Part shown: one piece after another, positions 28,944-33,472 of the stretch
Position numbering within the stretch: position 1 is the first letter of the stretch
Layout: each line of letters opens with the position of its first letter
Assembly: GCA_903873185.1 (NCBI GenBank)
Contig: CAIQNN010000040.1
Span: 1 to 64,000, forward strand
Direction: 5' to 3'
Length of the DNA stretch: 64,000 bases
From: an uncultured Actinomycetes bacterium
GTDB lineage: Bacteria > Actinomycetota > Actinomycetes > Nanopelagicales > Nanopelagicaceae
Program-made: the position numbers and the translations under genes
Notes under the pieces: model-generated
Database searches by the model: none
The model's input: the letters and a program-made list of their open reading frames with translations, nothing else
What the model was told of the DNA's origin: nothing

Positions 28944-30101
28944 ATGTCACTAAATCCCACCCCGGCAGATAAATTTACCTTCGGCCTCTGGACCGTCGGC
29001 TGGCAGGCCCGCGATCCCTTCGGCGACGCTACCCGTGGCCCGCTGGACCCCGTCCGCAGCGTCAACGAGCTAGCGGCTCGTGGGGCTTATGGCGTCACCT
29101 TTCATGATGATGACCTGATTCCATTTGGCTCTGATGAATCAGCCCGAGCCGGGCATATCGCTCGATTCAAGAAGGCGCTGGCTGAAACTGGGATGAAGAT
29201 TCCAATGGCCACAACCAACCTTTTCTCTCACCCGGTCTTTAAAGATGGGGCACTGACTTCAAATGATCGCGATATCCGTCGTTTTGCACTTCGCAAGGTG
29301 ATGCGAAACATCGACCTGGCCGCTGAACTAGGGGCTCAGATTTATGTTTGTTGGGGTGGACGCGAAGGTGCTGAATCTGATGGCGCAAAGGATGCTTACG
29401 TAGCTTTAGAACGCTATCGCGAAGGCTTTAATGTGCTGGGACAGTATGTAATCGACAAGGGCTATGACATTAAATTTGCAATCGAGCCAAAGCCAAATGA
29501 GCCTCGGGGCGATATTTTCTTGCCAACCATCGGCCATGCGCTGGCCTTTATCAATTCCCTAGATCACCCAGAAATGGTGGGCGTAAATCCAGAAGTTGGC
29601 CACGAACAAATGGCGGGCCTTAACTTCGTTCACGGAATTGCCCAGGCGCTCTTTCACAAGAAGTTGTTCCATATCGATCTAAATGGTCAGCATGGTCCAA
29701 AGTACGATCAAGATTTGGTCTTTGGTCACGGCGATCTAAAGTCCGCCTTCTTCTTGGTTGATCTTCTCGAGCGTTATAACTATGCCGGACCTAAGCACTT
29801 CGATTACAAGCCAGCTCGAACCGAAGATGACAAGGGTGTTTGGGCATCAGCTAGCGCAAATATGCGTACCTATTTACTTTTGAAGGAGCGAGCGCTGGCC
29901 TTCCGTAGCGATCCACGAGTTCAAGCTGCAATGAAGGACTCTCGAATTGATCAACTAGAGATCCCAACCATGGCAGCAGGGGAGAGCTGGAAAGACTTGG
30001 CTGATGAATCCTTCGACGTCGATCTGGCTGGCGAGCGTGGTTATGGCTACGAAGCGCTAGATCAACTAGCGCTCGAGCATCTGATGGGTGTGGGGATTTA
30101 G
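28944..30101 (+). CDS. xylA: Xylose isomerase
   Basis: Converts D-xylose to D-xylulose (and glucose to fructose) with divalent metals. 385 residues, class I as in Streptomyces, and the catalytic numbering matches: His54 and Asp57 in TFHDDD, Glu181 and Lys183 in [10 protein letters not shown], Glu217 and His220 in NPEVGH, followed by the [15 protein letters not shown] metal loop. AAGGAG lies 8-9 nt before the ATG. Converges with the transporter permease; the stop codons overlap (TTAG, 30098-30101). No xylulokinase or XylR repressor is in the window. Confidence 0.97.
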
Positions 30102-32246: not shown

Positions 32247-33320
32247 TTAGATTCCGTTAGCTTTGCAAAGTGCTTCGATGCCCTTACAGACATCGGCACG
32301 CTTCTGGAAGCCATCAGCGATAACTACCTTGACGTTTGCCTTGGTAATTCCGACTGGCTTTAGAAGTACTGAAGGTACGTTAACGGTTCCGTTGTTGGTA
32401 ACGCCGGTTGCTGTTGCAGCCTTCTTACCGTTTAGGAGAGCAACTGCAAGAGCAGCAGCGCCGTTAGCTTCGGCCTTGATGGCCTTGTAAACGGTGTTTG
32501 AAAGGTCACCAGTCAAGATGGCACGAAGACCATCAACTGTTGCATCTTGTCCAGATACGCAGACCTTGCCGTTTAGCTTGTTCTTCTTAAGAACTGCAAC
32601 TGCTGCAAGTCCTAGGCCTTCGTTTGCAGAAACTACTGCATCGAGCTTGCCGCCAGCCTTGGTTAGTTGTTGTTCGAAGATGGTTCCACCCTTGACGTTA
32701 TCCCAGCCAGGAACGGCGGTGTCGTCAACGAGGGTGTATGCCTTTGAAGTGATGTATGGACGGATGACTGAGTCATAGCCCTTCTTGAACAAGGTGGCGT
32801 TGTTGTCGTCTGGAGAACCGTTTAGGTAGACGATACGAGCCTTGGTTTTCTTAGCTGCCTTGAGGCAGTTAACAATTCCGGTACCTTGAAGAACACCAAC
32901 AGCGGTGTTGTCGAAGGAGACGTAGTAAGACTCAGAACCGTTAAGTGTTAGACGGTCATAGTCGATTGTTGGAACGCCTTGAGCTTTTGCCTTGTCCTGA
33001 ACTGCCTTTGCAGAAGCAGAATCAAGGTTCACCATGATCAAAACCTTTGCACCCTTGGTGAGCATTTGATCAGCAATTGTCTGGAAAGCAGTCTTGTCGC
33101 CGTTTGCATTCTGGATGTCAGCGGTTACGCCAGCAGCCTTGAAAGCAGCGGTCAAGAAGGGACGATCTGCTGTTTCCCAACGGTTTGATGATGCAGCATC
33201 AGGAAGGATTACGCCGACGAAGCCTTTTGCGGCTGCGTTAGCAGAAGTGTTTGCGAAACCTGTTAGTGCGAGAGCTGCAGCAGCAATAACTGCAGTAAGC
33301 GCAATACGTCGCTTGGTCAT
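32247..33320 (-). CDS. Sugar ABC transporter substrate-binding protein (XylF-like)
   Basis: 357 residues, periplasmic-binding-protein type 1 fold for monosaccharides, as in XylF and RbsB. Signal peptide about 1-30 (TKRRIALTAVIAAAALALTG then a typical ANA cleavage end). Family-like segments: VGVILPDAASSNRW near 34, VLIMVNLDSASAKAVQDKAKAQGVPTIDYDRL near 93-125 and VSGQDATVDGLRAILTGDLSNTVYKAI near 262-288. The position of a lipobox Cys reads LTGF, so the protein appears not to be a lipoprotein. The Shine-Dalgarno GAAAGGT lies inside a long inverted repeat (see leader element). Confidence 0.92.
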   Translation of the reverse strand: MTKRRIALTAVIAAAALALTGFANTSANAAAKGFVGVILPDAASSNRWETADRPFLTAAFKAAGVTADIQNANGDKTAFQTIADQMLTKGAKVLIMVNLDSASAKAVQDKAKAQGVPTIDYDRLTLNGSESYYVSFDNTAVGVLQGTGIVNCLKAAKKTKARIVYLNGSPDDNNATLFKKGYDSVIRPYITSKAYTLVDDTAVPGWDNVKGGTIFEQQLTKAGGKLDAVVSANEGLGLAAVAVLKKNKLNGKVCVSGQDATVDGLRAILTGDLSNTVYKAIKAEANGAAALAVALLNGKKAATATGVTNNGTVNVPSVLLKPVGITKANVKVVIADGFQKRADVCKGIEALCKANGI

Positions 33321-33330
33321 ATTTAGTATT

Positions 33331-33429
33331 ACCTTTCGAAGGTGTCAGACTCGTGACCAAACCTGCTTTTGGCCATACGTTCGAGTCAGCCTTCGAAAGG
33401 TAGTCGGATATGGTCAATTGGTCACGAGT
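33331..33429 (-). promoter_or_regulatory. Nested inverted repeats in the xylF-type leader
   Basis: ACCTTTCGAAGG (33331-33342) is the exact reverse complement of 33390-33401; inside it 33348-33353 pairs with 33382-33387 and 33354-33361 with 33368-33375 (one G-U in RNA). A second 12-bp perfect pair, ACTCGTGACCAA (33349-33360) with 33418-33429, would compete. The Shine-Dalgarno of the gene (GAAAGGT) is in the 33331-33342 arm. GATACT on the minus strand (33432-33427) may be the -10. Could be an RNA switch hiding the ribosome site, or two sets of repressor operators, since each TTTCGAA-type arm is itself nearly palindromic with a central CG. Confidence 0.65.
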
Positions 33430-33455
33430 ATCAAAGCCACATATCGGACATTTTT

Positions 33456-33472
33456 GTTAACGATTCGATAAC
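33456..33472. promoter_or_regulatory. Operator-like palindrome between xylF-type gene and argS
   Basis: GTTAACGATTCGATAAC is a 17-bp inverted repeat with one mismatch. It lies upstream of the possible -10 of the xylF-type gene. Size is compatible with a LacI- or ROK-type repressor site; no regulator is encoded here. Confidence 0.4.

Follow-up and report, generated by a model that had tools for sequence, protein, structure and literature searches.

One of the closest described systems to the leader analysed here is msiK RNA (RF01747). In Actinobacteria it places a long, bulged hairpin next to the ribosome site of a gene for a sugar-transport ATPase, and those who discovered it suggested that MsiK binds it in a feedback loop (PMC2864571). 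One strong copy of msiK RNA was found in each Nanopelagicaceae genome tested, including the genome of our window (the whole 64,000-nt stretch of DNA that was analysed), where it lies at G000:C7:55796-55854 (L245 1501-1559), scores 64.8 bits and precedes an MsiK-like ATPase gene. A bulged leader hairpin before a sugar-uptake operon is also seen in the RAT/BglG-type antiterminators. In addition, 5'-terminal stem-loops stabilise the ompA and papA mRNAs, according to references given in PMC3997798.

Few freshwater bacteria are as abundant as the Nanopelagicaceae (acI), which feed on scavenged sugars and peptides and also draw on light. On the minus strand of the window, a xylF-like gene opens an ABC transporter operon and is followed by an ATPase gene and then a permease gene. 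The nearest models of its product are XylF and ChvE, with scores under their cut-offs, and a xylose isomerase gene (28944-30101; 655 bits against a cut-off of 447) is convergent to the operon. Relatives of the xylF-like gene were gathered by protein searches of the genus, family genomes and named public records, and the gene was found in 3 of 3 genomes of the genus and 106 of 251 family genomes, as well as in named public records. From the family, 131 leaders were extracted, of which 101 were non-redundant. No curated Rfam 15 model matched the window or the relatives' leaders, and a literature search found no description of this leader. The features of the locus are listed below.

32247-33320, minus strand: gene for a XylF/ChvE-like sugar substrate-binding protein, first of the ABC operon (NCBIfam xylF 203.8 bits, cut-off 389.6; ChvE 176.5)
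33331-33343, minus strand: small hairpin ACCUU-CGA-AAGGU with the Shine-Dalgarno GAAAGG (33337-33332), from the fold; CGAAAGG kept in nearly all leaders
33348-33353, minus strand: P1 3' arm CGAGUC, from covariation
33355-33361, minus strand: P2 3' arm UUUGGUC, from covariation
33362-33366, minus strand: P2 apical loop GCAGG
33367-33374, minus strand: P2 5' arm GGCCAAAA, from covariation; one extra A compared with most relatives
33375-33381, minus strand: 5'-side bulge AACGUAU, about 7 nt; mostly 7-9 nt in relatives
33382-33387, minus strand: P1 5' arm GACUCG, from covariation and fold
33389-33391, minus strand: predicted transcription start, by the position rule of 6-8 nt past the -10
33397-33402, minus strand: -10 element TACCTT (TAnnnT), lying within the 13-bp repeat's upstream arm (33390-33402)
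33420-33425, minus strand: -35 element GTGACC, within the arm read as "competing" (33418-33429); spacing conserved in family leaders
33457-33472, minus strand: conserved upstream DNA site GTTATCGAATCGTTAA, present in 83 of 101 leaders, about 150 nt ahead of the start codon
33330-33342 and 33390-33402, no strand: arms of the outer 13-bp perfect repeat of the original prediction; species-specific, upstream arm overlapping the -10
33349-33360 and 33418-33429, no strand: arms of the competing 12-bp perfect repeat of the original prediction; species-specific, upstream arm overlapping the -35

Among 100 family leaders, TGAC was located exactly 18 nt before TAnnnT in 43, while 0.32 were expected from shuffles, and other spacings of the two elements were nearly empty. 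In the window, the spacer between the -35 and -10 is 17 nt. Given this recurrent exact spacing in relatives, transcription was predicted to start near 33390. Further upstream, the site at 33457-33472 has the consensus GTTAyCnnAnCGTTAn, in which GTTA is repeated directly at a distance of about one helical turn, and is probably the transcription-factor site of the operon. Between this site and the -35, a TGTCCGAwwTGTCC-like block (33441-33450, minus strand) is shared by 26 leaders from several genera.

When leaders were folded singly, a common form was obtained: P1, a 5'-side bulge, P2 with a short loop, and then the Shine-Dalgarno. With the RNA of the window beginning at 33390, the hairpin forms and the ribosome site is involved only in a weak five-pair hairpin; with a start at 33391 a rival fold competes, so that the ensemble is not uniform. 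In 47 of 49 leaders, pairing begins at +1 to +5, counted from the predicted start. The Shine-Dalgarno usually follows that start by 52-68 nt, within a 5' UTR of about 70 nt, and the hairpin ends 5-8 nt before the Shine-Dalgarno in most relatives.

Little structure was found by RNAalifold on plain MAFFT alignments of the leaders, because indels had been misplaced; the problem was solved by an ungapped seed alignment, built without reference to structure, from which a covariance model was made. The ungapped alignment holds 31 double-change cells (12.0 +/- 2.8 in shuffled alignments), with the peak at zero slide. In the model-fitted alignment of 72 family members, 240 double-change cells were counted against 80 +/- 12, a comparison that ignores phylogeny, and at most 43 remained when the arms were slid. 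In the same alignment, 82% of cells are paired against 67%, again uncorrected for phylogeny, and 16 of the 18 pairs have undergone double changes. Among 14 representatives less than 65% identical to each other, 156 of 176 core cells are paired, and several pairs occur with all four Watson-Crick types. G.U pairs outnumber A.C pairs by 94 to 29, as expected when the mRNA strand folds. These comparisons of sequence establish that the P1-bulge-P2 hairpin is conserved as an RNA structure, keeps its position and goes with binding-protein genes. The RNA hairpin that had originally been predicted in this leader is therefore real, with abundant compensatory changes in relatives, the evidence by which that prediction had proposed to judge it; its outer stem and competing partner found no support.

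Two further features of the leader were rejected. The P2 3' arm UUUGGUCA could pair with UGACCAA at the start codon (33312-33361, minus strand) in a single fold of the window, and by inspection this start-codon-occluding pairing (UUGGUCA/UGACCAA) is not kept by relatives. A 15-codon reading frame, MAKSRFGHESDTFER (33329-33376, minus strand), begins in the bulge and stops just past the Shine-Dalgarno. In the two sister species its end overlaps the start of xylF (ATGA), and the arrangement is limited to the genus. As a leader peptide (33376-33329) it was dismissed, being present in three genus members, with a matching frame absent or different elsewhere.

The refined covariance model was searched over 296 genomes of the order (E<=0.003) and 297 genomes of the class. 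It matched 99 of the 296 order genomes, in 7 of 17 genera and one family only, and in the 297 class genomes no match of the refined model fell outside Nanopelagicaceae. The hairpin occurs upstream of two paralogous XylF/ChvE-like binding-protein genes in several Nanopelagicaceae genera, and all strong matches that were checked lie upstream of XylF-like genes or of the paralogous clade, about 45% identical. Weak matches, of about 22-27 bits, mostly consist of the bare Shine-Dalgarno hairpin or of simple hairpins close to other genes. In genus g17 a different form of hairpin and promoter occupies the same leader position; the g17 leaders L048, L060, L124 and L129 have unrelated hairpins, some with two overlapping around a conserved ACUCAAUGUA. 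A similar layout of hairpin and ribosome site was also seen in L233 (G210:C15:4627-4680), where a simple long hairpin lies directly 5' of TTTTCGAAAGG, upstream of an ABC ATPase gene.

The reading that we favour, with a probability of about 0.5, is that an ordinary promoter would be followed directly by a structured 5' leader, whose terminal hairpin may protect the mRNA and keep the ribosome site free. Transcription would start near 33390, as the conserved -35/-10 spacing suggests, and the first 45 nt or so of the mRNA would fold into P1, a 5'-side bulge of 7-9 nt and P2. The action of the hairpin is most likely local and post-transcriptional: at the very terminus it could block attack on the 5' end, and by confining the upstream sequence it could leave the ribosome site open. 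The first gene, whose product ABC operons require in surplus, would then yield more. A high yield of binding protein fits published data on acI, in which transporters, xylose-annotated ones included, are expressed and transport proteins rank with the most strongly expressed proteins (PMC5574706). Two findings speak against this reading: a hairpin that only protects would have no need of the 5'-side bulge that has been kept, and g17 carries another hairpin and promoter at this position. The kept asymmetric bulge may point to a binding partner.

Such a partner is central to the alternative that P1-bulge-P2 is bound by a protein or small ligand, with a resulting change in translation or stability of the binding-protein mRNA, as was suggested for msiK RNA. 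This possibility gains from the retention of both the 5'-side bulge and the apical hairpin in different genera and before two paralogous genes, and from msiK RNA, which has the same architecture, precedes the gene of a sugar-transport ATPase in this genome and has been proposed to mediate MsiK feedback (PMC2864571). However, the bulge and loop sequences differ between genera, unlike those of aptamers or the near-invariant msiK bulge, and neither a conserved alternative pairing (the one proposed included) nor a terminator was found in the leaders, which speaks against a riboswitch as well. We consider regulation through the hairpin possible but doubtful. More speculatively still, and to our minds unlikely, the leader could be an undescribed Nanopelagicaceae-specific regulatory RNA that sets synthesis of the sugar-binding protein by binding, at the 5'-side bulge, either a sugar metabolite or a protein, which might be part of the transporter or the precursor of the binding protein; msiK RNA would act in parallel in the same cells.

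It is very improbable that the conserved hairpin is a mere spacer or by-product with no selected function. The primary sequence of the loops is indeed weakly conserved between genera, but compensatory change has occurred repeatedly and the position relative to both start and ribosome site has been kept.

The arms of the repeats had also been read as DNA operators for a repressor. They contain TTCGAA palindromes, and a repressor would work well if bound downstream of the -10 and ahead of the ribosome site; yet the pyrimidine half of the palindrome drifts in relatives (CTCTCGAAAGG, TTTCCGAAAGG, CCCCCGAAAGG), while CGAAAGG stays as the Shine-Dalgarno. P1 and P2 vary by compensation, with G.U pairs far in excess of A.C on the mRNA strand, and the site at 33457-33472 is a better candidate operator. 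We hold out almost no prospect for operators in the arms.

The two perfect inverted repeats on which the original prediction was built are both present, together with the two inner paired segments. The outer one, at 13 bp (33330-33342/33390-33402), is one pair longer than had been claimed and holds the Shine-Dalgarno GAAAGG (33337-33332) within its 3' arm, as described; the second is the 12-bp pair 33349-33360/33418-33429. Both repeats are more than chance in the sequence of the window: one such repeat arose in 2 of 20,000 dinucleotide shuffles of the 131-nt region and two in 0 of 20,000, and a sliding scan of the 64-kb window found two such repeats in the xylF leader region only. The RNA folded from 33440 reaches -39.9 kcal/mol (z = -3.5), a value that includes bases probably untranscribed. 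In relatives the pairing decays. The upstream arm of the outer repeat, which is the -10, pairs with the ribosome-site region at all 13 positions in the window but at only 12 and 10 in the two sister species, and the median of the other leaders is 8. For the arm with the -35, pairing with the leader falls from 12 of 12 to 7 in the sister with a 94% identical protein, 8 in the other sister and a median of 8 elsewhere. Since complementarity drops in sisters and farther leaders, the long repeats are species- or genus-level features; neither is conserved past the genus, and as conserved RNA features both pairings, including the outer stem said to bury the ribosome site, were rejected. An RNA switch in which 33418-33429 vies with the inner stems is scarcely credible, given that its perfect 12-bp complement, although beyond chance in the window, contains the conserved -35, loses some of its pairs in the sisters and would be left untranscribed by a start near 33390, further in than the start near 33420 that the original prediction itself took to preclude a switch. 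We infer that the long repeats arose where separately constrained motifs chance to be complementary, GTGACC to GGTCAC of P2 and TACCTT to AAGGTA of the Shine-Dalgarno. A striking pair of inverted repeats can thus arise where promoter hexamers, stems and ribosome site are each constrained separately.

Compared with the known systems, the xylF leader differs from the RAT/BglG type, which it resembles as a bulged hairpin ahead of a sugar-uptake operon, in that its sequence is without an overlapping terminator hairpin and U run and its 5' UTR is only about 70 nt. On the predicted start, the hairpin would lie a few nucleotides from the 5' end and ahead of the ribosome site, as do the stabilising stem-loops of ompA, papA and aprE. 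Those stem-loops are not known to have a conserved asymmetric bulge or to make up a family-wide covarying RNA family, whereas the xylF hairpin has such a bulge and covaries across a bacterial family. With msiK RNA, it shares its place as an actinobacterial 5' leader of a sugar ABC-transport gene and its plan of basal stem, one-sided 5' bulge and apical hairpin near the Shine-Dalgarno. The msiK model (gathering threshold 33 bits) had no match in the window or in the leader loci of 26 relatives: msiK RNA has an almost invariant 11-nt bulge, AACGGAUCGUC, and a CGUACC loop, while the window has an AACGUAU bulge and a GCAGG loop and its relatives differ again, and only in msiK RNA is the Shine-Dalgarno within the basal stem and an ATPase gene downstream. 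The xylF leader is thus similar in plan to msiK RNA without being a member of it. If sugar-binding-protein genes throughout the family carry a leader RNA in addition to msiK RNA, this would reveal a layer of post-transcriptional control in streamlined genomes with little known regulation. The xylF leader also offers a definite covarying structure and a covariance model for further tests. We regard it as a new motif among RNAs of a known kind.
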